A stretch of DNA of 58,516 nucleotides from Frankia sp. R82 (GTDB lineage Bacteria > Actinomycetota > Actinomycetes > Frankiales > Frankiaceae), in assembly GCF_023716925.1 (NCBI RefSeq), contig NZ_JAMQQG010000215.1:1-58516 (forward strand), given 5' to 3'. Numbering within the stretch: the stretch's first letter is position 1; every line of letters begins with the position of its first letter. The position numbers were made by a program, and so were the translations under genes. A model generated the notes under the pieces. The model saw nothing but the letters and a program-made list of their open reading frames with translations, did not search any database and was not told the origin of the DNA. Below are positions 44,389 to 58,485 of the stretch, one piece after another.

Positions 44389-46125
44389 GTGACTCGTGCC
44401 GCTGTGCGGTTCCCTTACCAGGACGCCGCCCTGTCCATCGACCGGCGTGTCGAGGACCTGCTCGCGCGGATGGACGTCAGGGACAAGGCCGGGCTGCTGT
44501 TCCAGCCGATGGCGCAGATCGGCGAGTTCGACGCGCCGGGTCCGTTTGGCAAACCGCCGACGCGTTCGCTGCTCGACCGCCGCATCAACCATGTCAACAT
44601 CCTGTTCGTGCCCTCCGCCCGCGAGATCGCGCAGTGGCACAACGCCATCCAGCAACACGCCCTTCAGGACGGCCTCGGCATCCCCATCACCATCTCCAGC
44701 GACCCCCGGCATTCCTTTACCAACAACCCGGCGATGGCGCTGCTGGCCGGCCCCTTCTCCCAGTGGCCCGAGCCGCTGGGTTTCGCGGCCATCGGGTCGG
44801 CGGAACTGGTCGAGCAGTTCGCCGACGTGACCCGCCGGGAGTATCTGGCGGTCGGTATCCGCACCGCGCTGCATCCCCAGCTCGATCTGGCCACCGAGCC
44901 ACGGTGGTCTCGCATCTTCGGTACCTTCGGGGCGGACGCCGACCTGGCCGCCAGGCTGGGGGTCGCCTACGTCCGGGGTCTGCAGGGCGAGCAGGTCGGA
45001 CCGCGGTCCGTCTCGGCGATGGCCAAGCACTTCCCCGGCGGCGGTCCCCAGAAGGACGGTGAGGACCCGCACTTCCCCTACGGTCGGGAGCAGATCTACC
45101 CCGGCGGCCAGTTCGATCTGCACCTTGAGCCCTTCCGGACGGTCATCGCCGCCGGAGTCTCGCAGATCATGCCGTACTACGGCATGCCGGTCGGCACGCA
45201 GTACGAGGAGGTCGGCTTCAGCTTCAACCAGGGGGTCGTGACGGGGCTGCTGCGCGACCAGCTTGGCTTCGACGGCATCGTGTGCAGCGACTGGGGCATC
45301 ATCTCCCACACCTACTGGGGAGTGGAGCATCTGGGCCCCGCCGAACGCCTGGCCAGGGCCCTGGACGCGGGCATCGACCAGTTCGGCGGCGAGGACGACG
45401 TCGACCTCCTGCTGGGTCTGATCGCGAACGGCACCATCAGCGAACAGCGGATCGACACCTCGGCGCGCCGCCTGCTGCGCGAGAAGTTCCGGCTCGGGCT
45501 GTTCGAGCAGCGGTTCGTGGACGCGGGCCAAGCCGATGCGATCGTGGGCGGCCCCGCGGCGCGGGCCGCGGGTCTGGCCGCCCAGGCGAGCGCGCACACC
45601 CTGCTCAAGAACGCCGAGAGCGGTCCTGCCCGGCTGCCCCTGCGCGGTTCGCCCCGTCTGTACGTCGAGGGCCTTTCGCCCGAGGCGATCGGTGAGCGGG
45701 CCCAGGTCGTCGCGACTGTCGCCGAGGCCGACGTCGCCGTGCTGCGCCTGGTCACCCCCTGGGAGCAGCGGGGCGAGCCCGGCACCTACGAGACGTTCTT
45801 CCATGCCGGCTCCCTGGCGTTTCCCGCCGAGGAAATGGCTCGGATCCAGTCGATCTGCTGGGAGATCCCGACGGTGATCGACATCTATCTCGAACGCCCC
45901 GCGATCCTCGCGGACCTCACCGACGCCACCGCGTCCCTCATCGCCAACTTCGGCGCCTCGCCGGAGGCGTTCGTGCAGGTCCTGTTCGGGGAGGCCGAGC
46001 CGCGGGGGCGGTTGCCCTTCGACCTTCCCTCCTCGATGGCCGCGGTCGAGGCAGGCCACAGCGACGTCCCCTTCGACGCGGTGAACCCGACCTTCGGCTT
46101 CGGATTCGGCCTGCGGTACACCTGA
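44389..46125 (+). CDS. Glycoside hydrolase family 3 (beta-glucosidase/xylosidase-like), short form
   Basis: The 578-residue protein has a GH3 (alpha/beta)8 barrel: 'ATEPRWSRIFGTFGADADL' near 165-183, MAKHFPGGGPQ near 213-223, and the nucleophile Asp301 in GIVCSDWG. A second alpha/beta sandwich follows, with HTLLKNAES near 405 and ending FGFGFGLRYT. It lacks the fibronectin-III-like C-terminal domain found in the larger GH3 at 47178. No signal peptide is visible; a cytosolic exo-glycosidase is likely, acting on imported beta-linked sugars. GTG 44389 follows GGAGGGACA. It is followed after 28 bases by a small gene and then a TetR gene on the same strand. Confidence 0.87.
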   Translation: MTRAAVRFPYQDAALSIDRRVEDLLARMDVRDKAGLLFQPMAQIGEFDAPGPFGKPPTRSLLDRRINHVNILFVPSAREIAQWHNAIQQHALQDGLGIPITISSDPRHSFTNNPAMALLAGPFSQWPEPLGFAAIGSAELVEQFADVTRREYLAVGIRTALHPQLDLATEPRWSRIFGTFGADADLAARLGVAYVRGLQGEQVGPRSVSAMAKHFPGGGPQKDGEDPHFPYGREQIYPGGQFDLHLEPFRTVIAAGVSQIMPYYGMPVGTQYEEVGFSFNQGVVTGLLRDQLGFDGIVCSDWGIISHTYWGVEHLGPAERLARALDAGIDQFGGEDDVDLLLGLIANGTISEQRIDTSARRLLREKFRLGLFEQRFVDAGQADAIVGGPAARAAGLAAQASAHTLLKNAESGPARLPLRGSPRLYVEGLSPEAIGERAQVVATVAEADVAVLRLVTPWEQRGEPGTYETFFHAGSLAFPAEEMARIQSICWEIPTVIDIYLERPAILADLTDATASLIANFGASPEAFVQVLFGEAEPRGRLPFDLPSSMAAVEAGHSDVPFDAVNPTFGFGFGLRYT

Positions 46126-47177: not shown

Positions 47178-49592
47178 CTACGAGCCCTGACTCACCTCGA
47201 GCGGTGTGACGGCAACGGTGGGCAGGAAGGTCCGCTTTTCGGGCCGAAGAATCCGGCGATCCCCGACGATCCGTAGCGATCCCTCAAGTCGCCGGTCGTC
47301 GGAGGAGACACCGGTGAACAGGTCGACGACGGCGGGTTCGACCGCGACCCGGTGGTCGATGCCGCTGAAGGCGAACAGGTCGGCCGAGAGCCCGAAGACC
47401 ACCCGGGAGGAGTGCCCCGGCTCCAGCTCGACCCGGGCGAAGCCACCGAGCTGCTGCGCGGGCCGGGTGACCACCCCCGCGTTGACCCGGAGGTAGAGCT
47501 GGACGACCTCGGCACCGGACCGGTCGCCGACGTTGGTCACGGTCAGCCCCACCGTGGCGGTACCGCCGGTGCTGATCTGCGCGGTGACCTCGAGGTCGGA
47601 CAGCTCGAACCTGGTGTAGCTGCGGCCGAAGCCGAAGGGGTACTGCGGCGTGGCCGACAGGTCGCGGTAGTGCAGGCCACGGATCATGGCCGGCCGGCGA
47701 TAGCCGCTGTCGGCGCGCTGGTAGTGGTAGAGGGGGAACTGCCCGCCGTGCCGGGGAATGGTGTAGGGCAGTTTGCCGCCGGGGTTCACCTCGCCGAACA
47801 GCGCCCGGGCCAGCGCCCGCGGGCCCGCCTGGCCGGCGAAGGTCGCCACCACCAGCGCGGCGGACTCGAGCACCGCCGGGGGCAGGGGGTAAGGCCGGCC
47901 CTGGATCAGAACGGTCACCCGCGGGGTGCCGGCTGCGGCCACGGCGGCGGCCAGCTCACGCTGGACGGCCGGCAGTTCGATGTCGGCGGTGTCGGTGCCC
48001 TCGCCCTCAGTGCCGCCGCCGATCGCGGCACTGTGGCCGCCCAGGGCAAGAACGACGACATCGGCATCCCGAACCGCCGCAACCGCCCGCGCGATCGCCT
48101 CGCCGTCGAGGTGGTCGGTCAGCCCGGTGCCGGGTTCCACGACGACCTGCGCGGCGTGCTCGGCGATCTCCTCGGCCAGTGAGCGGGTGCCGTAACGGAA
48201 CCGGATGTAGCCCTCGGAGTCCAGGTCACGCGTCTGTTCGCCCTCGGGGTCGGCTTTGAAGAAGTCCATGCCGGCGAGGTTCCCCAGGCCACCGGACTCC
48301 ATGAACCGGTACATGTCCCGGCCCACCGGGTAGGTGTAGGTCGCGAACTGCTGGCGGGCCTCATGCCCCAGCGGTCCGACGACGGCGACCTTCAGCCCCG
48401 GCCGTAACGGCAGAATGCTGTTGTTCTCGAGCAGGACCACGCTGCGTTCGGCCAGCTCGAGGGCCAGGTCGGCGCCTTCGGCCGTGGTCGGGGCGATCTC
48501 CACCGGGCCCTCGGGCGCGTACGGCTGCTCGAACAGGCCGAGTTCGAACTTGACCGTCAGCAGGCGCAGCACGGCGGCGTCCAGCTCGGCGACCGGAACC
48601 CGGCCGGCCTCGACCTCCGCCGCCAGTGTCTCGCCGTAGGCGAAGATGAACGGTGCCTCGAGGTCCAGGCCGGCGTGCAGCGCGTAGCGGGCGATCTCGG
48701 CTTTGTCGGTGGCGACCCGCTGGCGGTCGAGCGCGTGCTGCAGCGCCATGTAGTCGGCGACGACGAAGCCGTCGAAGCCCATCTGTTCGCGCAGCAGATC
48801 GTGCAACAGCTCGCGGGACACTCCGGCGGGGATGCCGTCCACGTCGCCGTAGGACGTCATCACCGACCGCAGCCCGGCCGCGTTGATCGCGGCCTCGACC
48901 GGGAACGCGACCACATCCCGGGTGAACCGGCTGCCCGCCTCGTAGGACGACGCGTTCAGGCCGCCCTGGCCCAGACCGAAGCCGAGGAAGTGCTTGGCGG
49001 TGGCCACCACGCCCGTTGACAGGTCCTCGCCCTGCAGTCCCTGGACGAACGCGACTCCGAACGTTGCGGCCAGCAGCGGGTCCTCGCCGTAGGTCTCGTG
49101 CACCCGCCCCCACCGCGGGTCGAAGGCGATGTCGAGCACCGGCGACAGCGCGTGCCGCAGGCCCAGCCTGATCATCTGCCGACGGATGACGTCGGTCATC
49201 TGACGGACGAGCTCGGGACTCCACGTCGAGGCCAGCCCGATCGCCGTCGGAAAGACCGGATGCCGTGGCGTCACGACGCCGCTGAGCGCCTCCACCTGGA
49301 ACAGGGTCGGGATGCCCAGGCGGGTGCGCTCGACCAGGAACCGCTGGATCTCGTTGACCCCCGTCACGACGCGAGACGGGTCCTCGGTGTGCAGGGCCAC
49401 TACCGCTCCGAGGCCGGTGGTCAGCATCTTCGTCGCGGCGTCCTCGAGCAGATGCCCCTCGCGCAGCAGCAGCATCGGCATCAGGCACGTCAGCTGCCGG
49501 GACTTTTCCGGGACCGTCATCTGCGCCAACAGTAAGCGGGCCCGCTCCTGGGGAGTTCTGGTCGGATCCAGATGGTCGGCGGCGCCGATCAT
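47178..49592 (-). CDS. Glycoside hydrolase family 3 beta-glucosidase/beta-xylosidase, full length
   Basis: The 804-residue protein shows the complete GH3 layout: barrel (1-310) with FDPRWGRVHETYGEDPLL (158-175), ATAKHFLGFG (198-207) and nucleophile Asp280 in GFDGFVVADY; alpha/beta sandwich with LLENNSILPLRPG and 'LALGGHSAAIGGGTEGEG'; and a C-terminal fibronectin-III-like domain with VTNVGDRSGAEVVQLYLR. There is no signal peptide. ATG 49592 follows AAGGAGGACG. It is downstream of, and in the same direction as, the lactonase gene (99 bases), but an AT-rich inverted repeat in the gap suggests its own promoter. It is convergent with the TetR gene at 46360. Confidence 0.9.
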   Translation of the reverse strand: MIGAADHLDPTRTPQERARLLLAQMTVPEKSRQLTCLMPMLLLREGHLLEDAATKMLTTGLGAVVALHTEDPSRVVTGVNEIQRFLVERTRLGIPTLFQVEALSGVVTPRHPVFPTAIGLASTWSPELVRQMTDVIRRQMIRLGLRHALSPVLDIAFDPRWGRVHETYGEDPLLAATFGVAFVQGLQGEDLSTGVVATAKHFLGFGLGQGGLNASSYEAGSRFTRDVVAFPVEAAINAAGLRSVMTSYGDVDGIPAGVSRELLHDLLREQMGFDGFVVADYMALQHALDRQRVATDKAEIARYALHAGLDLEAPFIFAYGETLAAEVEAGRVPVAELDAAVLRLLTVKFELGLFEQPYAPEGPVEIAPTTAEGADLALELAERSVVLLENNSILPLRPGLKVAVVGPLGHEARQQFATYTYPVGRDMYRFMESGGLGNLAGMDFFKADPEGEQTRDLDSEGYIRFRYGTRSLAEEIAEHAAQVVVEPGTGLTDHLDGEAIARAVAAVRDADVVVLALGGHSAAIGGGTEGEGTDTADIELPAVQRELAAAVAAAGTPRVTVLIQGRPYPLPPAVLESAALVVATFAGQAGPRALARALFGEVNPGGKLPYTIPRHGGQFPLYHYQRADSGYRRPAMIRGLHYRDLSATPQYPFGFGRSYTRFELSDLEVTAQISTGGTATVGLTVTNVGDRSGAEVVQLYLRVNAGVVTRPAQQLGGFARVELEPGHSSRVVFGLSADLFAFSGIDHRVAVEPAVVDLFTGVSSDDRRLEGSLRIVGDRRILRPEKRTFLPTVAVTPLEVSQGS

Positions 49593-49639
49593 GGCGTCCT
49601 CCTTCGTGGCGCAGGGCATCCTTATTTTTAGCATGGAAA

Positions 49640-49669
49640 GCATATTTGCTGCTAATGGCAATAATATGC
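49640..49669. promoter_or_regulatory. AT-rich inverted repeat upstream of the large GH3 gene
   Basis: GCATATT (49640-49646) and AATATGC (49663-49669) are a perfect 7-base inverted repeat with a 16-base spacer, in a strongly AT-rich 60-base stretch between the lactonase stop and the GH3 start. It is a probable promoter/operator region and differs in sequence from the ATTTCC-type palindromes. Confidence 0.45.
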
Positions 49670-49691: not shown

Positions 49692-50678
49692 TCAGCCGGC
49701 GAAGGGAAGGGCGGGCAGGCCGCGGACGCCGGCGTCGATCGCGAAGATTGCTCCGGCGCCGGGGTGGCGGTCGGTGTCGGTGGCGAGCCGGGAGGTCGTG
49801 ACATACAGCGTGCCCAGGTCGGGGCCGCCGAAGGCACAGGCGGTGGTCCGTGGCACGGGCAGCTCGATGACTTGGTCGAGGCTTCCGCTCCCGGTGAACC
49901 GGCAGACCGCGCCGCCGCCCCACAGCGCTGTCCAGACGCCGCCGTCCGCGTCGACGGCCAGACCGTCGGGCTGGCCCGGCCCCTGCGGGACCACCGCGAA
50001 GGGGCGCCGGCCGGTGAGTCCACCAGCGGGGTCGTAGTCGAACACGTCGATCCGGCTGGTGGGCGTGTCGACGTAGTAGGCCCGGGTGCCGTCTGGACTC
50101 CAGGCCAGGCCGTTGGAGATGGTGACCCCGCCTAGGACGACAGTGGTCGTGGCGTCGGGATCCAGGCGGTGCAGGGAGCCGGCGCCGGGTGTCTCGTCGT
50201 AGGCCATCGAGCCGCAGTAGAAACGGCCGTCCGGGTCGCAGCCGCCGTCGTTCATCCGCAGCCCGCGCGCCGCCGGCCACAGGCTTGGCAACACCCGCCA
50301 GGACACCGAACCGACCGCACCCGACCGGAAGGGCGACCCGGCGATCATACCGGCTGCGGACGTGGCTCCCGGTGCCGGCCCGGCGGCGAGGCCATCGTCG
50401 GGAGGAGGCGTGTCGGGCCTGGGCACATGGGGGAGAGGCGGATCGAGCAGGGCGAAGCCGCGTTCCAGGGCGACGACCGCCCCGCCGTTCGTTCGCGGCC
50501 GGACCGTCGCCGCGATCGTCCCGAGGTGGTGGCGCTCGACGGCACCGGTCCTCGCGTCAAGGGCGAGGACGTCGCCCGCGAGGAGGTCGACGAGGTGCAG
50601 GCCGCCCCAGGCCGGCACCCACAGCGGCCCCTCCCCGTGGGTCGTCATGGGCCCGGTTACCTGGTCAACCGTGGTCAC
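49692..50678 (-). CDS. SMP-30/gluconolactonase family lactonase
   Basis: The 328-residue protein has a six-bladed propeller pattern: GEGPLWVPAWGGLHLVDL (16-33, with the metal-binding Glu), LRMNDGGCDPDGRFYCGSMA near 140 (Asn ligand), ISNGLAWSPDGTRAYYVD near 180 (Asn ligand) and PDGLAVDADGGVW near 230 (Asp ligand). These enzymes open sugar lactones to aldonic acids. An insert of about 45 residues, Pro/Gly/Ala-rich, lies between 'GFALLDP' and LRMNDG. ATG 50678 overlaps the dehydrogenase stop by 4 bases. It is the last gene of the LacI-type operon and would follow the sugar dehydrogenase step. Confidence 0.87.
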   Translation of the reverse strand: MTTVDQVTGPMTTHGEGPLWVPAWGGLHLVDLLAGDVLALDARTGAVERHHLGTIAATVRPRTNGGAVVALERGFALLDPPLPHVPRPDTPPPDDGLAAGPAPGATSAAGMIAGSPFRSGAVGSVSWRVLPSLWPAARGLRMNDGGCDPDGRFYCGSMAYDETPGAGSLHRLDPDATTTVVLGGVTISNGLAWSPDGTRAYYVDTPTSRIDVFDYDPAGGLTGRRPFAVVPQGPGQPDGLAVDADGGVWTALWGGGAVCRFTGSGSLDQVIELPVPRTTACAFGGPDLGTLYVTTSRLATDTDRHPGAGAIFAIDAGVRGLPALPFAG

Positions 50679-52234
50679 GGCGGGGACACCGGTACCACGC
50701 TCATGGTGTCGGGCACGTCGGGCACGTCGGGCGTGTCGGTGGCGTCAGGTTGGACGAGTCGGCCGTCGAGGCGCCGCGGCAGTCGCCACGGGTTGGCGTC
50801 GCGCAGCGCCTCGGGCAGCAGGTCGTCCGCCAGGTTCTGGTACGTGACGGGGCGCAGAAACCGGCCGATGGAACTCGTCCCGACCGAGGTGAACAGCGAC
50901 GTGGCCGCCGGGTAGGGGCCACCGTGCGTCATCGCGTGGGTCACCGCGACGCCGGTGGGCCAGCCGTTCCAGAGCACCCGCCCGGCCCGCTCGGACAGTT
51001 CCTGCAGCAGCGCGCGGACCAGCGCGGCGTCCTGGGGATCGTCGGCCTCGCCGTGGACGGTCGCCGTCAGCTGGCCCTCGAGCACCCGGGCGGCGTCGAG
51101 CAGCTCGGCCGGGTCGGTGTAGGTGACCAGAACGGAGGCCGGTCCGAAGACCTCGGCGGCCAGCGCGTCCGGGTCAGCGACCAGGGCCGACACCGTCGCC
51201 GTCACCAGCGACGGTCCGACCGGTGCTGGCGCGTCCGGTGCGCTCGCCGTCCTGGCTGTCGGCGCGCTGACCAGGACGGTCGCGGCCGGGTGGGCGGTCA
51301 ACGCGGCCAGGCTCCGGTCATATCCGGTGTGGATGCGGTCGTTGAGCAGCGCCGCGCCCGGGCGGCCGGTCGTGGCGTCGACCAGAGCCTGCTCGGCGGC
51401 ACCCGCCGGGGCGAGCAGCAGTCCGGGCTTGGTGCAGAACTGGCCGGCGCCCAGGGTGAAGGACTCGACGAAGCCGGCCCAGATCTGCGGGCCGCGGGCG
51501 CGGGCGGCTGCCGGCGTCACGAACACCGGGTTGACGCTGCCCAGCTCGCCGTAGAACGGGATCGGGTCGGGGCGGCGTGCGGCCAGGTCGAACAGCAGCC
51601 GGCCGACCCGGGCGGATCCGGTGAACGCCGCGGCCCGGATCCGTGGATCGACGAGCGCGGCCCGTCCGGTGTCGTCGCCTTCCATCAGGGCGAAGACGCC
51701 GCCCGGCGCGCCCGCGCCCGCGAGCGCCGCGCCCACCAGCCGCGCGGTGTGCCGGGACAGCTCCAGATGGCCGTGATGAGCCTTGAGTAGGACCGGGCAG
51801 CCGGCGGCGAGGGCTGCGGCGGTGTCGCCGCCGGCGACGCTGAAGGCGAACGGGAAGTTCGACGCGGCGAAGACGAGGACCGGGCCGACCGGGACCATCA
51901 TCCGACGCAGGTCCGGACGTGGTCCGGTCGGCCAGGCCGGATCGGCGGTGTCCACGGCCACCTCCAGGTAACCGCCGTCGTCGAGCAGGTCCGCGAACAG
52001 CCGCAGCTGGAAGGTCGTGCGCACGAGCTCGCCACGCAGCCGCGGCTCGGCCAGGTGGGTTTCCGCGTGTGCCAGTGCGACCAGGCGGTCGGCATCCGCG
52101 TCCAGCGTGGCGGCTATCGCGCGCAGGATGTCCGCGCGCCGGCTCGGTGCCAGCGCGGCGAACGGCCGGGCGGCGGCCCGGGCCGCCGCGAGCGGATCGG
52201 TACCGGCTGGCGGCACGAGGGTCGATGGGGTCAA
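50675..52234 (-). CDS. Aldehyde dehydrogenase, 2,5-dioxopentanoate (2-oxoglutarate semialdehyde) type
   Basis: The 519-residue ALDH has Glu230 in FYGELGSVNPVFV and catalytic Cys267 in FTLGAGQFCTKPGLLL. The ELGSxNP and GQFCTKPG variants are characteristic of 2-oxoglutarate semialdehyde dehydrogenases, which make 2-oxoglutarate in the last step of Weimberg-type pentose and hexarate pathways. The extreme C-terminus contains a small repeat (DTPDVPDVPDT), probably disordered. ATG 52234 is 43 bases after the alcohol dehydrogenase gene, and its stop overlaps the lactonase start. A general ALDH role is less likely given the motif set and neighbours. Confidence 0.87.
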   Translation of the reverse strand: MTPSTLVPPAGTDPLAAARAAARPFAALAPSRRADILRAIAATLDADADRLVALAHAETHLAEPRLRGELVRTTFQLRLFADLLDDGGYLEVAVDTADPAWPTGPRPDLRRMMVPVGPVLVFAASNFPFAFSVAGGDTAAALAAGCPVLLKAHHGHLELSRHTARLVGAALAGAGAPGGVFALMEGDDTGRAALVDPRIRAAAFTGSARVGRLLFDLAARRPDPIPFYGELGSVNPVFVTPAAARARGPQIWAGFVESFTLGAGQFCTKPGLLLAPAGAAEQALVDATTGRPGAALLNDRIHTGYDRSLAALTAHPAATVLVSAPTARTASAPDAPAPVGPSLVTATVSALVADPDALAAEVFGPASVLVTYTDPAELLDAARVLEGQLTATVHGEADDPQDAALVRALLQELSERAGRVLWNGWPTGVAVTHAMTHGGPYPAATSLFTSVGTSSIGRFLRPVTYQNLADDLLPEALRDANPWRLPRRLDGRLVQPDATDTPDVPDVPDTMSVVPVSPP

Positions 52235-52277
52235 CGGGTACTCCAGGTCTGGGTCTGTCCGGGCCCGCGGTCCGGTC

Positions 52278-53339
52278 TCACGGGTGGAGCAGGATCTTGG
52301 TGGCGTCGGAGGCTGGCGTGTCCAGGAGCGCGAACGCCTGCCCGGCGTCGTCGAGGGCGACCTCGTGGGTGATCACCAGCCCGGGGCGCAGCACACCCGC
52401 GGCGAACGCGCGAACCGCATGCGTCCAGGCCCGCGACGGCGCGCCGAACACCGTGTGCAGGGTGATCCCCCCGACAACGAGATCGACCGGCGCCAACGGC
52501 CGGTCCTCGGCCGCGGCCAGGCCGGTCAAGACCACACGAGCGCCGCGGTGCGCGAGCGTCGTCGCCAGGTGGGCGCTGCCGGGCGCACCGGCCGCCTCCA
52601 CCACGACGTCGAAACGTCGCTGCCACCGGGTGCCCGTGGCCGCCTCGTCGGGGCTGATCAGCGTGGTCGCGCCGCAGGCGACCGCGAGATCGGCCCGGCG
52701 CGTGCGCGGGTCGACGGCGACGAGTTCGGCTGGTCCCCCCGCGGCCAGCAGCTGCGTGGCGAGCAGGCCCAGCGTTCCCGCGCCGACCATGGCGATCCGC
52801 ATGCCCGGCACGGCGGCGGCGAGCAGGCATGCGGCGGCGGCACACGCCGCCGGCTCCAGCCCGGCGGCGGCGCGCAGATCGATGCCGGCGGGCAGCGGGT
52901 GCAGCAGCGCGGCCGGCACGACCAGGTGGTCGCACCACGCCCCGGGACGGGTGAAACCGGTCTCGTCATACGGGCCGTCGCACAGGTGGGTATCCCCGCG
53001 CCGGCACGCGCCACAGATCCGACACGACCGCAGCCCCTCGGCGACGACCGGCCGTCCGATCAGGGACGGGTCGACCCCGGGCCCCACGGCTTCGACGGTG
53101 CCGGACCATTCGTGGCCGGGCAGCACCGGATACCGGACGTAGCCGGCGGGACGGGTGCCGTGCAGGATCTCCCGGTCCGACCCGCAGATGCCCGCCCACG
53201 CCACCCTGACCAGTACCTCCCCGGCCGCCGGGGGCGCGGGCACCACCGGACGAACGGTGAGCTGGCCGGGCGCGTCGATCCACACGGCCCGATCAGCCAC
53301 GCCCGCCACCAGCCCGCCCGATGAGACCCGTCCCGGCAT
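52278..53339 (-). CDS. Zinc-dependent medium-chain alcohol/sugar dehydrogenase
   Basis: The 353-residue MDR protein has the catalytic zinc site (C52 in WAGICGSDRE, H76-E77 in LPGHEWSG), the structural zinc quartet C106, C109, C112 and C120 in CRICGACRRGDTHLC, and a Rossmann domain with 'IAMVGAGTLGLLATQLLAAGG'. The family includes sorbitol, threonine and aldose dehydrogenases. As part of this operon it is the natural candidate for the first step, oxidation of an aldose to a lactone or of a sugar alcohol. ATG 53339 lies 24 bases after the dehydratase gene. Confidence 0.88.
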   Translation of the reverse strand: MPGRVSSGGLVAGVADRAVWIDAPGQLTVRPVVPAPPAAGEVLVRVAWAGICGSDREILHGTRPAGYVRYPVLPGHEWSGTVEAVGPGVDPSLIGRPVVAEGLRSCRICGACRRGDTHLCDGPYDETGFTRPGAWCDHLVVPAALLHPLPAGIDLRAAAGLEPAACAAAACLLAAAVPGMRIAMVGAGTLGLLATQLLAAGGPAELVAVDPRTRRADLAVACGATTLISPDEAATGTRWQRRFDVVVEAAGAPGSAHLATTLAHRGARVVLTGLAAAEDRPLAPVDLVVGGITLHTVFGAPSRAWTHAVRAFAAGVLRPGLVITHEVALDDAGQAFALLDTPASDATKILLHP

Positions 53340-53363
53340 CGAGCCGAACCGCGGATTGCGGCC

Positions 53364-54545
53364 TCACGTCGACGGCCTGCGGCCGGCCTTCGCCACCGGT
53401 CGGGTACCGCGCAGTTCCCAGCCGTCGGCGTACAGGTTGAAGTGGGCGCCCTGGGAGGGCCGGTCGCGGATGAAGTCGACATCGAGATCCACGCCCAGGC
53501 CCGGAGCCGTGGGCAGCGCGAAATAGCCGTCGACGACCTCGGGCAGGCCGGGTGCGGCCTGTTTGACCTCCTCGTCGGCGAAGTCGTTGAAGTGTTCCTG
53601 GATCTTGAAGTTGGGGGTGGTCGCGGCCAGGTGCAGGTTGGCGGCGGTCAGGACCGGCCCGCCGACGTTGTGCGGGGCGACGAGCATGTAGTGGGTCTCC
53701 GCGGTGGCGGCTAGCTTGCGGGTTTCGGCGATGCCGCCAAGATGGCCGATGTCGGGCTGGATGATGTCCGCGGCGCCGAGGTCGAACAGCTCGCGGTACT
53801 CGATCCGGTCGTGGATGCGTTCCCCGGTTGCGACCGGCAGCGCAATGCCGGCGGCGGCCTTCGCCAGCGCGCGCAGGTTCTCCGGCGGGACGGGTTCCTC
53901 GACCCAGGACGGCTCGAAGGGCACCAGCGCGGTGGCGATCCGGATCGCCTCGTGCGGGGAGAACCGGCCGTGCATCTCCACGAGGATCTCCACGTCCGGG
54001 CCGACCGCATCACGGACCGCCTCGACCAGACCGATCGAGCGGCGGCGCTCGGCGGGTTCGAGTTCGGCCCAGCCGGGGCCGAACGGGTCGAACTTCAACG
54101 CCCGGTAGCCCTGCTCGACCACCCGGCGGGCGGCGGCATGGAACTCCTGCGGCGTGCGTTCCACGGTGTACCAGCCGTTGGCGTAGGCCTTGATCCGGTC
54201 GCGGACCTTCCCGCCGAGCAGACGCCACACCGGCTGGCCCAGCGCCTTGCCCACGATGTCCCAGCAGGCCATCTCCACACACGCGATCCCGGACATGACG
54301 ATCTCACCGGCCCGGCCGTAGTCACCGCGTTTCATCCGCGCGACCAACGACTCGATGTCGAATGGGTCGGAACCGAGCACGTGGTTGCCGGCGGCCTCGT
54401 CGAGGTAGCCGAGCAGGGCGCGGGTGTGCCCGAGCATCCGGGTCTCCCCGACCCCGACCAGGCCGTCGTCGGTGTGCAGCCGCACGTAGGTCAGATCCCG
54501 CCACGGTGTGCCCAGCACGAACGTCTCAAGCCTGGAGATTTTCAC
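53364..54545 (-). CDS. Enolase-superfamily sugar-acid dehydratase (mandelate racemase subgroup)
   Basis: The 393-residue protein has the lid domain (1-110) and the barrel with metal ligands Glu190 (in ILVEMHGRFS), Glu216 (in SWVEEPVPPE) and Glu242 (in VATGERIHDR), plus QPDIGHLGGIAET (His268) and 'VAPHNVGGPV' (His292). E-x-H-G-R, EEP, GER and a barrel His are the pattern of D-galactonate/gluconate-type acid-sugar dehydratases, which remove water alpha to the carboxylate to give a 2-keto-3-deoxy acid. The exact substrate cannot be read. GTG 54545 overlaps the U32-like stop by four bases (GTGA). Confidence 0.88.
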   Translation of the reverse strand: MKISRLETFVLGTPWRDLTYVRLHTDDGLVGVGETRMLGHTRALLGYLDEAAGNHVLGSDPFDIESLVARMKRGDYGRAGEIVMSGIACVEMACWDIVGKALGQPVWRLLGGKVRDRIKAYANGWYTVERTPQEFHAAARRVVEQGYRALKFDPFGPGWAELEPAERRRSIGLVEAVRDAVGPDVEILVEMHGRFSPHEAIRIATALVPFEPSWVEEPVPPENLRALAKAAAGIALPVATGERIHDRIEYRELFDLGAADIIQPDIGHLGGIAETRKLAATAETHYMLVAPHNVGGPVLTAANLHLAATTPNFKIQEHFNDFADEEVKQAAPGLPEVVDGYFALPTAPGLGVDLDVDFIRDRPSQGAHFNLYADGWELRGTRPVAKAGRRPST

Positions 54546-55618
54546 CGGGTCACCAGCCGCGGTGCGTCCTTCGGCTCGGTCCCGGTTCGTGGTTGTGCCG
54601 TCGGTACCGGAACCGCCAGGTCGGCCGCGGGCAGGGTCGAGCCGGTGGCCGCCGGCCCGTAGCGGGCCAGGAGTTCGAGGCCGATCTCGGCGCGGCGGAC
54701 CCGTTCCCGGCCCAGCGCCACCGCCGTCGTGCTCAGATGGGTACCGGCCGGGTAGATGTTCGGGGCGTTGCGCAGCCCGAACTTCAGGTACACGGGCGCG
54801 GCGACGCGGACGATCTCCGCGATCTCGAAGTGCCGCACGAAGCCGCCCAGATCGTCGGGTGCTTCCACGTAAAGGTCGATCGGGATGTCGACGGCCGCCC
54901 GGACCGCGGCGAGCTGGGCCAGCGACAGGTCGGTCGGCACGTTGTAGGAGTCGGCGCCCAGACGGGCGGCGATCCGGATCGACGCGGGGTTCGCCAGGCC
55001 CATCTGGACGCTGGTCTTGAACCGCAGCCCGGCGGGCAGCTCGCCGACGGCGCGCATCTCGGCCGCCAGGGACAGCACCCCGAGATCGGTGACCAGGACG
55101 CCGCGGATACCTGCCTCGCAGGTGCGGCGGATGTCCTCCAGCACGTGAACCAGCTGTTCGGTGCCGCGGGCCTGGGTACCCAGGCCCGCGGCACCGGTGG
55201 CGAGCGCGGCCGCACCGGTGTCCCAGCCAGCCAGCGGTCGGGCGAACAGACTCACCTCGACCCGCGCCTCGGCGGCCGCCTGCGCGGTGTCCCGCAGCTC
55301 GCTGGCTGTCAACAGCAGGCCACCGCTGCCCTGCGAGACGCGATGCACGGTCACCCCACGCCGGCCGGCCTCGTCCAACACCGCCTCCAGCGCCGCCGGA
55401 CCCTCCACGCTTGGAATCTCGACCCGAAAGGCCCCTCCGTCGGGGAACCGCCCGGCACTGCTCGGCACCTCGTGGAGGTCCGCACCAGGAAGACCCGCGG
55501 CCCGTAGGAAATCGCGCGTTCGTTCCACTCCGATGCCCTTCTCGACACAACCGGGCACGCCGTGCACGGTGTGACCGCACACATGACGGCGATCCGCGGC
55601 TATGTACGCGCGGATCAT
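54542..55618 (-). CDS. U32-peptidase-like TIM-barrel protein of unknown activity
   Basis: The 358-residue protein has a TIM-barrel pattern: GIRGVLVTDLGVLSLAAEMR near 170-189, FKTSVQMGLANPASIRIAAR near 200-219, 'LGADSYNVPTDLSLAQLAAV', and IPIDLYVEAPDDLGGF near 245. This resembles the U32 peptidase-like family, whose known members include tRNA and quinone hydroxylation factors and many unstudied metabolic proteins. The iron-sulfur Cys set of those factors is not evident. As first gene of a sugar-acid operon, before the dehydratase and with overlapping stop and start, it more probably acts on a sugar-acid intermediate than on protein. ATG 55618 is 53 bases downstream of the LacI-type operator. 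Confidence 0.6.
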   Translation of the reverse strand: MIRAYIAADRRHVCGHTVHGVPGCVEKGIGVERTRDFLRAAGLPGADLHEVPSSAGRFPDGGAFRVEIPSVEGPAALEAVLDEAGRRGVTVHRVSQGSGGLLLTASELRDTAQAAAEARVEVSLFARPLAGWDTGAAALATGAAGLGTQARGTEQLVHVLEDIRRTCEAGIRGVLVTDLGVLSLAAEMRAVGELPAGLRFKTSVQMGLANPASIRIAARLGADSYNVPTDLSLAQLAAVRAAVDIPIDLYVEAPDDLGGFVRHFEIAEIVRVAAPVYLKFGLRNAPNIYPAGTHLSTTAVALGRERVRRAEIGLELLARYGPAATGSTLPAADLAVPVPTAQPRTGTEPKDAPRLVTR

Positions 55619-55670
55619 GGCTAGAAGAAGCTCGCTTGTGGATCATCTCTACTGATCCACTTTCGTTCGA

Positions 55671-55684
55671 TGTGAACGTTAACA
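55671..55684. promoter_or_regulatory. LacI-type operator
   Basis: TGTGAACGTTAACA is palindromic except for one position per half and matches the TGTTAACGTTAACA-type operator bound by LacI/GalR proteins with a central CG. It lies between the sugar-acid operon (start 55618, minus) and the LacI-family gene (start 55793, plus), so it may repress both. Confidence 0.75.
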
Positions 55685-55792
55685 TTCCCGTGTGCTGGTG
55701 TCCACGGGGCTGCGCGGATCCCGGCCACCAGCTGTGGCCACGGCCCGCACCGGTAGCCTGACGGCTGTCCACTGCCCGCAGGAGAGTGCGAT

Positions 55793-56917
55793 GTGGCCCC
55801 AGACCCCTCCGCCACCGGCACGCGGATGACCAGCCAGGCGCTCGGGTCCGACCCGGTGCCCGGCAGCCCACGCACCGGGTCGGTCATGCGTGACGTCGCG
55901 AGACTCGCGGGCGTCTCCCATCAGACGGTCTCCAGAGTGCTCAACGGCCACCCGAACGTGCGCGAGGCGACCCGCCAGCGCGTACTCGAGGCGGTGGAGG
56001 CACTGGGCTACCGCCGCAACCTCGCCGCCCGCGCGCTCGTCACCCGCCGGACCGGCACGCTCGGCATCGTCGGTTTCGAGACCACCCTGTTCGGACCGGC
56101 CTCCGTGCTCTACGCGCTCGAGGACGCCGCCCGCCGCGCCGGCTACTTCGTCAGCGTCACCACGATCCGCGACCTCGACCGCCGCTCGATCCTCGACGCC
56201 CTCGAACGGCTGCGCACCCAGTCGGTCGAGGCGGTCATCGCCCTCGCGCACAAACCCGCGATCACCGCCGCCCTCGCGCAGCTGCCAGACGCGTTTCCCC
56301 GCGTCGCGGTGGGCGGATCGGGAGGCGAGGACACGGTTTCGAGCGTGCGGGTGGACAACGTGACCGGCGCGGGCCTGGCCACCCGGTACCTGCTCGACCT
56401 CGGCCACCCGACCGTGCACCATGTCGCCGGGCCAGCGGACTGGCCGGAGGCGCGCCAACGCGAGGAAGGCTGGCGCGCCACGCTGGAGGACGCCGGTGCC
56501 ATGGTTCCACCGGTGCGGCCACACGACACCGCCCGTCGGGCCTGGGGGGCCGGTATCGGCTACGAGGAGGGTCGACTGCTTGCCGCGGACCCGTCGGTCA
56601 CCGCCGTCTTCTGCGCCAACGACTCCCTCGCGCTCGGAGTCCTGCGCGCCCTGCATGAGGCCGGACGACGGGTACCCGACGAGGTCAGCGTCATCGGCTT
56701 CGACGATGCCCCGGAGTCCGGCTATCTCATCCCCCCGCTGACCACCGTCCGACAGGACTTCGCGGCACTCGGCCAGCAAGGCATCGCCCTGCTGCTCGAC
56801 CAGTTCGATCACTCCGACCGTGCTGACCAGGCGAGGACACCACGCCAGGTGGTGCTCCCACCCGTCCTGATCCCACGGGCAAGTACCGCACCGCCCGGGC
56901 AACAGCCCCACGCCTGA
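55793..56917 (+). CDS. LacI/GalR-family transcriptional regulator
   Basis: The 374-residue protein has a LacI DNA-binding domain at about 31-80 (MRDVARLAGVSHQTVSRVLN, hinge-helix region 'RRNLAARALVTRRTGTLGIV') and a periplasmic-binding-like sensor domain (VEAVIALAHKPAI, 'TAVFCANDSLALGVLRAL', VSVIGFDDAPESGYLIPPLT). The N-terminal 30 residues are an unusual extension; translation could instead begin at the internal Met at about residue 32 (ATG 55886). It faces away from the sugar-acid operon across a perfect-looking LacI operator and probably represses that operon until a sugar or sugar acid binds. Confidence 0.88.
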   Translation: MAPDPSATGTRMTSQALGSDPVPGSPRTGSVMRDVARLAGVSHQTVSRVLNGHPNVREATRQRVLEAVEALGYRRNLAARALVTRRTGTLGIVGFETTLFGPASVLYALEDAARRAGYFVSVTTIRDLDRRSILDALERLRTQSVEAVIALAHKPAITAALAQLPDAFPRVAVGGSGGEDTVSSVRVDNVTGAGLATRYLLDLGHPTVHHVAGPADWPEARQREEGWRATLEDAGAMVPPVRPHDTARRAWGAGIGYEEGRLLAADPSVTAVFCANDSLALGVLRALHEAGRRVPDEVSVIGFDDAPESGYLIPPLTTVRQDFAALGQQGIALLLDQFDHSDRADQARTPRQVVLPPVLIPRASTAPPGQQPHA

Positions 56918-57171: not shown

Positions 57172-58424
57172 GTAGGCTGTCGTCGCTTAGTTCTGGTGTG
57201 TTTCGTGTCTGGATGAGAGGGTTGGGCCGGCAGGTCTTCCCGTCCTTCTGCCGGTCAGGACTGTGTCGTGGGTTCGCAGAAGAAGTGGCCGGTCACCTTG
57301 ACCGCGGCTGATCGTGACGCGCTGGTTCGGGTGACCTCGACGGGGGTTCATCCGGCGTCGATGATCCGGCGGGCGCGGGTCCTGCTCGCGTTGGACACCT
57401 CGGTCGGCCCGGTGGCCTCCCAGGAAGAGCTCGTGGTCCGGGTCGGGGTCTCGGGTGAGACGCTGCGGCTGGTCGCGAAGCGGTTCACCGAGACCGAGGG
57501 GGATGTGTGGGCCACGATCGGCCGGAAGGAACGGGAGCGTCCCCCGGTGCCGTCCCCGGTGACCGGTGAGGTCGAGGCCAGGCTGATCGCGCTGGCCTGC
57601 TCGCAGCCACCGGCGGGTTATGCCCGCTGGTCGCTGCGGCTGTTGGAGAAGCATGTCGCGCTGGTCGATGACATCCCGGACCTGGACCATTCCACCATCG
57701 GCCGGGTCCTAAAAAAACGAGGTTGCGTCCTCATCTGAAGAAGTGCTGGACGATCCCGCCGAAGGCGAACGCGCAGTTCGCCGCACGGATGGAAGACGTC
57801 CTGGCGGTCTACGCCCGACCCCACGACGCAGGCGTGCCCGTGGTGTGCATGGACGAGAAGCCCTACCAGCTGTTGGCCCACGCCCGCGACCCGATCCCCG
57901 CCACGCCAGGGCATGACCGGCGCGAGGACTCCGAGTACGTGCGCCACGGAACCTGTTCGATCTTCTGCTGGGTCGAGCCACTCGCCGGCTGGCGCCGCGT
58001 CCACGCCACCCCACGGCGCACCAGGATCGACTGGGCCCACCACGTCCGGCGCCTGCTCACCCTCGACTACCCCGACGCCGAACGGGTCGTGCTCGTCATG
58101 GACAACCTGAACACCCACAACATCGAATCGCTCTACGAAGCGTTCGACCCCGCTGTCGCGTTCACGCTCGCGCAACGACTCGAGATCCACCACACCCCCA
58201 AACACGGCTCCTGGCTCAACATCGCCGAGATCGAACTCGCCGCCCTGACCCGCCTAATGCCTCGACCGCCGCATCGACACCCTCGACGTCCTGAACACCG
58301 AACTCGACGCCTGGCAGACAGCCGTCAACGCCGACCAGCGCCAAGTTACCTGGCACTTCACCACCGACGACGCCCGCACCAAACTCCGCCACCTATACCC
58401 CACACATTAGCGGCGACAGTCTAC
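57172..58424 (+). mobile_element. IS630-family insertion sequence (1253 bp)
   Basis: The ends are imperfect inverted repeats: GTAGGCTGTCGTCGCTTA at the left and the complement of TTAGCGGCGACAGTCTAC at the right (three mismatches in 18). Each end is flanked by TA (57170-57171 and 58425-58426), the target duplication of IS630/Tc1-type elements. A single transposase gene fills it. Another element may begin directly to its right. Confidence 0.85.
57268..58410 (+). pseudogene. IS630-family transposase with A7 frameshift site and an extra lesion
   Basis: The first frame (57268-57738) has the helix-turn-helix part (MIRRARVLLALDTS, VGVSGETLRLVAKRF). At AAAAAAA (57711-57717) a -1 shift continues the protein as '[19 protein letters not shown]', normal IS630 sequence, so this is a programmed frameshift. 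The DDE residues are in [25 protein letters not shown] and [15 protein letters not shown]. Near 58254 an apparent extra T (CGCCTAATGCC) throws out the last 50 residues; the other frame completes the family C-terminus ([19 protein letters not shown] to TAG 58408-58410). The lesion leaves the catalytic triad but probably inactivates this copy, unless it is a sequencing error. Confidence 0.8.
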
Positions 58425-58485
58425 TAGTGGCGGTCTGCGGGGACTGTACGAGTAACGGTGTGACCCTGATCAGGGAGAACACCCG

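Follow-up and report, generated by a model that had tools for sequence, protein, structure and literature searches.

An operon with one dehydratase step unassigned

Which protein acts on the product of the aldonate dehydratase in a sugar-acid operon of Frankia sp. R82 that carries no recognised gene for the following step? The operon lies on contig NZ_JAMQQG010000215.1, the complete 58,516 nucleotides of which were analysed as one stretch (the window), in a genome of 6.9 Mb that is 95% complete and divided among 370 contigs. Its first gene encodes a U32-like TIM-barrel protein, and we consider it likely, judging from sequence and gene neighbourhood, that this protein acts on the product of the MR/MLE-type dehydratase encoded immediately behind it. 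The leading hypothesis, held tentatively and with its chances put a shade below even, is that it is the dehydratase forming 2-oxoglutarate semialdehyde (KGSA). The broader claim is the firmer of the two because the U32 gene also stands beside FAH and KGSA dehydrogenase genes or beside a GHMP kinase gene, and because most MR/MLE-U32 pairs are found without the type of aldehyde dehydrogenase (ALDH) present in the window.

The first-pass annotation had listed a dehydrogenase, a lactonase, an enolase-type dehydratase, an ALDH and the U32-like gene, and all five are present as open genes on the minus strand. The operon, which runs from about 55528 to 47178, is intact and compact; two of its junctions are GTGA overlaps, and no intergenic gap exceeds about 45 bases:

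54542 to 55528, minus strand: U32-like TIM-barrel gene, 328 amino acids (aa) from a probable GTG start; the open reading frame (ORF) is open from an ATG at 55618
about 55018-55016 and 54784-54782, minus strand: codons of the U32-like lysines K171 and K249, respectively, numbered from the GTG
53364 to 54545, minus strand: MR/MLE (enolase superfamily) sugar-acid dehydratase, galactonate/gluconate-dehydratase-like
52278 to 53339, minus strand: zinc-type MDR polyol/sugar dehydrogenase
50675 to 52234, minus strand: ALDH of the NADP+ family, probable KGSA dehydrogenase
49692 to 50678, minus strand: SMP-30/gluconolactonase-like lactonase
47178 to 49661, minus strand: GH3 glycosidase whose closest relatives of solved structure are beta-xylosidases; probably last in the operon

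Pfam bore out the family given for each gene, with scores of 32.3 bits for Peptidase_U32 (cut-off 22.4), 230 for MR_MLE_C, 87.2 for ADH_N, 118.6 for Aldedh and 240.5 for SGL. The stop codon of the U32-like gene overlaps the start of the MR/MLE gene in a GTGA at 54545-54542, in keeping with the coupling of the two genes that had been proposed, and a second GTGA at 50678-50675 joins the ALDH stop to the SMP-30 start in the same way. The true start of the U32-like gene is probably the GTG at 55528 rather than 55618, leaving the first 30 ORF residues untranslated, because homology to its relatives begins at about residue 31 and several homologues start there. Aldose dehydrogenase, lactonase and aldonate dehydratase genes, assigned by family only, stand together in the operon, and neither the ORF list nor Pfam places a DHDPS, FAH, IlvD or KDPG-aldolase gene within it, which bears out the earlier remark that the second dehydratase step is without an assigned gene. 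The further statement that the U32-like gene is the only one left over needs narrowing: it is the operon's only dehydratase candidate, but the GH3 gene, which begins 30 bases after the lactonase gene, probably belongs to the operon as well.

Pairing of the MR/MLE dehydratase with the U32 gene

The overlap of the two genes in the window reflects a linkage that recurs elsewhere. Orthologues of the MR/MLE protein were sought in 396 actinobacterial genomes (E up to 1e-100, at most four candidates scored per genome), and a U32 gene lies within 3 kb of 25 of the 26 places found outside the window; the sole exception (L228) encodes an MR/MLE protein at 54% identity. These places are not independent, since one genus (probably Streptomyces-like) accounts for nine of them and a single other family for 15. 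U32-clade genes were found in 18 of 146 related genomes, a count that includes the Frankia genome itself and one weak partial match. Of the 84 loci at which a U32-clade gene was found (L021-L104), 14 also have an MR/MLE gene at least 60% identical to the one in the window. These pairs repeatedly have regulators, sugar transporters and lactonases around them, as well as dehydrogenases of the MDR or SDR type. No DHDPS, FAH, IlvD, UxaA, PfkB or KDPG aldolase gene was detected at any of the 14 (E 1e-6, one reference each). Neighbours were labelled by comparison with references on heuristic gene calls, except that L027, L031 and the window were annotated by tblastn, and some contigs carry two locus names (e.g. 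L089/L219, L096/L221 and L006/L027). The models nearest to the MR/MLE protein itself are gluconate/galactonate dehydratase (298 bits, cut-off 750) and galactonate dehydratase (288 bits, cut-off 311), both below cut-off.

A U32 barrel with invariant lysines

All 46 members of the clade match Peptidase_U32 (PF01136; E up to 0.001). It is the only model that Pfam reports for the window protein, which has no match to PF00701 (DHDPS/NAL), and a profile comparison with UbiU, UbiV, TrhP and RlhA of E. coli gave a probability of 95.8 over 265 columns. The clade belongs to the same sequence family as these four proteins, most of which share its E37, D148, G150, S173 and N180. It departs from them in its sugar-acid operon setting, at position 171, where it has lysine and UbiU, TrhP and RlhA have histidine, and in its cysteines: none is invariant or nearly so among the 46 members, and the cysteine-bearing stretches of the E. 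coli proteins face gaps in the alignment with the clade. The cysteines of characterised bacterial U32 members are ligands of an iron-sulphur (Fe-S) cluster, so the clade has no Fe-S site of that kind.

K171 and K249 are invariant in all 46 rows and in a 60-row alignment that includes a distant Enterobacter relative; together with E37, R63 and D218 they are among the invariant charged residues, all of which this relative keeps. The AlphaFold2 model (46 rows; pLDDT 89.9, pTM 0.88) is a TIM barrel whose eight main strands bear the conserved motifs, with K171 at the C-terminal end of predicted strand 5 and K249 at that of strand 8. Two lysines together with the missing Fe-S ligands would suit a Schiff-base enzyme. 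The PDB offered only weak partial matches as sequence relatives. By fold, the U32 protein Mk0906 (PDB 5d88) ranks seventh in Foldseek (VIA Z 14.5, root-mean-square deviation 2.9 over 185 residues); other TIM barrels score equally, hence no function is read from this likeness.

The uniform matches to Peptidase_U32 and the profile match to the E. coli proteins are also what an ordinary U32 protein, an Fe-S hydroxylase or a peptidase, would give if it were merely hitchhiking in the operon. A hitchhiker is hard to square with the linkage to MR/MLE at 25 of 26 places, and the clade, besides having no conserved cysteine, has invariant residues of its own such as K171. On the MR/MLE linkage and the missing cysteines we rejected this explanation, which we regard as highly improbable.

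A slot held elsewhere by DHDPS-family genes

The review PMC9795676 lists crystal structures of 2-keto-3-deoxy-aldonate dehydratases in just two families, FAH (acting on the D-form) and DHDPS/NAL (acting on the L-form), the latter with a lysine that forms a Schiff base. In line with the Weimberg pathway, the window operon combines a sugar dehydrogenase and a lactonase with a probable KGSA dehydrogenase and an aldonate dehydratase of the MR/MLE type, the type found in archaea, but the penultimate dehydratase is neither FAH nor DHDPS/NAL and a U32-like protein is found instead. With KdgD and L-KDA dehydratase (DHDPS/NAL) this protein shares the operon slot, the TIM barrel and a lysine available for a Schiff base, but not sequence, since only the U32 Pfam model fits it.

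The correspondence of slots emerges from the ALDH. In the same 396 genomes we found 43 places outside the window with a related ALDH (E up to 1e-60, at most three candidates scored per genome) and fetched 40 of them, omitting the three weakest. Tblastn with reference proteins over the fetched stretches placed a DHDPS-family gene at 18 of the 40, one of them about 9 kb off, and FAH at two, one being L170. The order DHDPS-MR/MLE-ALDH occurs in six loci (L152, L153, L155, L157, L159 and L163) and ALDH-DHDPS-MR/MLE in two (L174 and L189), while U32-MR/MLE-ALDH is the order of the window, L026, L027 and L031; none of these 12 loci, in which one gene or the other stands with MR/MLE and ALDH, contains both. 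In operons otherwise like that of the window, the slot of the U32 gene is taken by a DHDPS-family gene. Five of six tested DHDPS proteins score as 5-dehydro-4-deoxyglucarate dehydratases, those of L173 and L183 above the KdgD cut-off and those of L152, L159 and L174 above PRK03620 only, and the one from Azospirillum passes none. The DHDPS operons and the window operon nevertheless appear to encode analogous, not identical, pathways because the four MR/MLE proteins scored from the former belong to other subfamilies, those of L153, L155 and L159 being talarate/galactarate-like and that of L174 glucarate-like, all below cut-off.

The best PDB relatives of the window ALDH are 1eyy, presumably the ALDH of Vibrio harveyi, and 3v4c, an NADP+ ALDH. 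Five plasmid relatives, out of 480 records, were inspected. Two are encoded in operons that also hold genes for a DHDPS-family protein, a proline racemase and an oxidase, which we read as probably of the hydroxyproline type; a third belongs to an SMP-30/DHDPS/sugar-transport operon, and the remaining two have other neighbours, in one case including a nearby FAH gene. Since relatives of the window ALDH adjoin KdgD-type dehydratases, the enzyme is by analogy a probable KGSA dehydrogenase, but it scores just 46 bits on the GucD-type KGSA dehydrogenase model against a cut-off of 770. In a separate group of eleven loci from one probably Streptomyces-like genus (L165-L167, L169, L171, L172, L176-L178, L186 and L188), a window-type ALDH adjoins a divergent IclR gene and is the only pathway gene detected; we read them as a recurrent orphan KGSA-dehydrogenase-like locus.

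Other dehydratases in the genome, and regulation

A dehydratase encoded elsewhere could also serve the operon, and the first-pass annotation had proposed a search of the genome for FAH- and DHDPS-type genes. This search gave a single DHDPS gene, which scores above the DapA cut-off (271 versus 206), and three FAH genes, none above an NCBIfam cut-off and none on the window contig; the genome also has one IlvD-type gene and no match to PF01081 (KDPG aldolase). The twelve other members of the genus that we examined have no U32 gene, and each has between one and six FAH genes. Because each of the three FAH genes of R82 has a similar-scoring counterpart among these U32-less genomes (a comparison by score only), none of the three looks to have been acquired with the operon.

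Two features upstream of the operon bear on its control:

55793 to 56917, plus strand: LacI-family regulator gene, divergent from the operon
55670 to 55685: probable LacI operator ATGTGAACGTTAACAT, between the LacI gene and the operon

A perfect palindrome, ATGTTAGCGCTAACAT, lies upstream of the U32 gene in L003-L006 and L027, which represent four genomes of a Parafrankia-type genus (L006 and L027 are the same contig, and L002, one of six such loci, was left out of the comparison); L042 has no such palindrome upstream of its U32 gene. Allowing up to one mismatch, the operator pattern occurs at four places in the whole R82 genome, and its reversed control at none. The only exact match is the window site, and the three one-mismatch places lie within or next to genes that show no visible link, so at this search sensitivity no second regulon member was found in the genome, nor a co-regulated dehydratase elsewhere of the kind that would have spoken against the original proposal. 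Looser matches within the window occur at about chance frequency. Beyond the LacI gene, two ORFs of 156 and 234 aa at 57268-58427, overlapping by 16 bases in different frames, resemble by eye a split IS630-type transposase.

Weighing the reaction of the U32-like protein

A number of observations weigh against KGSA formation as the reaction of this protein. A window-type ALDH is linked at only three of the 14 MR/MLE-U32 loci, 11 being without it, and at none of the 26 fetched MR/MLE stretches (several on short contigs), among which one place has an adjacent ALDH. Because 25 of the 26 keep the U32 gene while none has this ALDH, the conserved unit is the MR/MLE-U32 pair and not the five-gene set. 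Seen from the ALDH, 20 of the 40 loci show no gene of the three dehydratase families. In L164 and L179 an MR/MLE gene lies 5-8 kb from the ALDH, with neither DHDPS nor U32, and L170 combines U32, a window-type ALDH and two FAH-like genes. As to the protein itself, Foldseek and VIA-align return hundreds of TIM barrels at similar scores and give no functional lead, and K249 aligns with a lysine of UbiU only, in a poorly aligned stretch, and may not be specific to the clade.

The sparse linkage of the ALDH would be easier to explain if the U32-like protein were a 2-keto-3-deoxy-aldonate aldolase (a Dahms or non-phosphorylative Entner-Doudoroff route), splitting the MR/MLE product into pyruvate and an aldehyde to be oxidised by the ALDH or another enzyme. 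Invariant lysines on a TIM barrel suit a class I aldolase, class II aldolases top the Foldseek ranking, generic as that ranking is, the MR/MLE protein is nearest to gluconate/galactonate dehydratases, whose products are hexonate-derived, and a PF01081 aldolase is lacking from the genome. We nevertheless think an aldolase quite unlikely: the ALDH linked in the window's own clade is of a family often found beside KdgD-type dehydratases, the setting of a KGSA dehydrogenase, and KdgK- and KdgA-like genes already adjoin the U32 gene at some Bacillales loci.

The wider distribution of the clade speaks against any one simple reading. Seventeen Bacillales U32 loci carry a GucD-like KGSA dehydrogenase (at least 64% identical to the L100 enzyme, itself above the NCBIfam cut-off with 890 bits); FAH is present in all 17, and therefore U32 need not form KGSA there, and DHDPS in seven. 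At 14 Bacillales loci an IlvD-type dehydratase gene directly precedes the U32 gene, which we count in favour of KGSA formation. The Bacillales loci among L050-L104 are large sugar-acid clusters that combine a nickel-pincer isomerase (group 22), LarB/C/E-like proteins, UxaA, IlvD, FAH, KGSA dehydrogenase, a TRAP-type transporter and U32. At ten acidobacterial loci (L061, L070, L079, L084, L085, L087, L090, L091, L097 and L101) the U32 gene lies directly behind a GHMP kinase gene, of which the one representative scored, from L085, passes the homoserine kinase cut-off; we read these as another pathway that draws on this U32 clade. Eight of the ten have a GFO/IDH oxidoreductase gene before the kinase gene. 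The Enterobacter plasmid cluster (L024), which looks biosynthetic, encodes a 29%-identical relative with both lysines beside a phosphotransferase, an oxidoreductase and an aminotransferase. Judged by gene neighbourhoods, such varied contexts would agree better with a general function on keto acids, of the 2-keto-3-deoxy or a related kind, than with one limited to pentoses.

Nearer to the window, FAH and GucD-like ALDH genes lie some kb from the MR/MLE-U32 pair in L211, L217, L225 and L227, the genomes of L089 and L096, which have the pair, hold unlinked FAH-ALDH pairs (L193 and L194), and six HpcH/HpaI genes accompany the three FAH genes in R82 itself. The L041 genome has a GucD-like ALDH without a recognised partner (L192). 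A search of 12 genomes with the GucD model found ALDH matches in all 12, none above cut-off, the best scoring 682 bits in the genome of L041.

Accordingly placed FAH genes would also allow the U32-like protein to carry out some other sugar-acid or keto-acid step, such as epimerisation, isomerisation or the clearing of a side product, with an unlinked FAH protein forming KGSA. The full FAH and KGSA-dehydrogenase sets beside U32 in the 17 Bacillales loci, the separate FAH-ALDH pairs of actinobacterial U32 genomes, the kinases and oxidoreductases beside U32 in Acidobacteria and in the distant Enterobacter cluster, and the three FAH genes of R82 all fit this possibility. We hold it to be rather unlikely, in that the three FAH genes, by score, have their like in U32-less members of the genus, lie off the window contig and reach no NCBIfam cut-off, and the operator pattern is matched exactly at one place in the genome, at this operon. 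The proposal that the U32-like protein replaces the missing dehydratase thus survives in part: the slot taken by DHDPS elsewhere, the single DHDPS gene (DapA), the lack of PF01081 and the unique operator speak for it, and the presence of U32 beside FAH in Bacillales and the many pairs without a window-type ALDH speak against it.

A putative pathway

The nearest solved structures to the GH3 protein are 7zb3 (548 bits) and 8c7f (545 bits), named beta-xylosidase or xylosidase, and its top model is xylosidase/arabinosidase at 573 bits, below the cut-off of 1050. The SMP-30 protein is related to regucalcin and to the bacterial SMP-30 protein 7plb, which we take to be the Caulobacter xylonolactonase. 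Because the GH3 gene follows the lactonase gene so closely and its product resembles beta-xylosidases, the pathway probably starts from an oligosaccharide; the substrate is likely a pentose by these resemblances, a hexose being possible. A second GH3 gene, at 44389-46125, also lies at the far end of the operon.

Gene content and linkage point to a Weimberg-type pathway, oxidative and non-phosphorylative, which would probably serve a pentose released by the beta-xylosidase-like GH3 enzyme. The MDR dehydrogenase would oxidise the sugar to a lactone, the SMP-30 protein would open this to the aldonate, and the MR/MLE enzyme would dehydrate the aldonate to a 2-keto-3-deoxy-aldonate. The U32-like protein would bind this product and remove its C4 hydroxyl to give KGSA, replacing a DHDPS- or FAH-family dehydratase, and the ALDH would then yield 2-oxoglutarate. 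By the predicted fold and the conserved residues, the U32-like step may proceed through a Schiff base with K171 (strand 5) or K249 (strand 8) at the mouth of the barrel, whereas classical U32 proteins use Fe-S chemistry.

A possible third dehydratase family

The listings of open-access PMC yielded no literature linking a U32 protein to sugar-acid catabolism. If the reading of the U32-like protein as a KGSA-forming dehydratase is right for the clade at large, which we would venture only with reserve, the Fe-S-free U32 clade would be a third, unrelated family of 2-keto-3-deoxy-aldonate dehydratases, lysine-using and without cluster ligands, in Actinomycetota, Chloroflexota, Thermomicrobia, Bacillota and Acidobacteriota. 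Such a third family would be new relative to the review PMC9795676, and a U32 barrel lacking cluster ligands would be at work in sugar-acid catabolism, not in the hydroxylation of RNA or quinones. The gene is widespread, relatives being encoded in at least 589 genome stretches, and the two plasmid records annotated at the match name the relative 'U32 family peptidase'.

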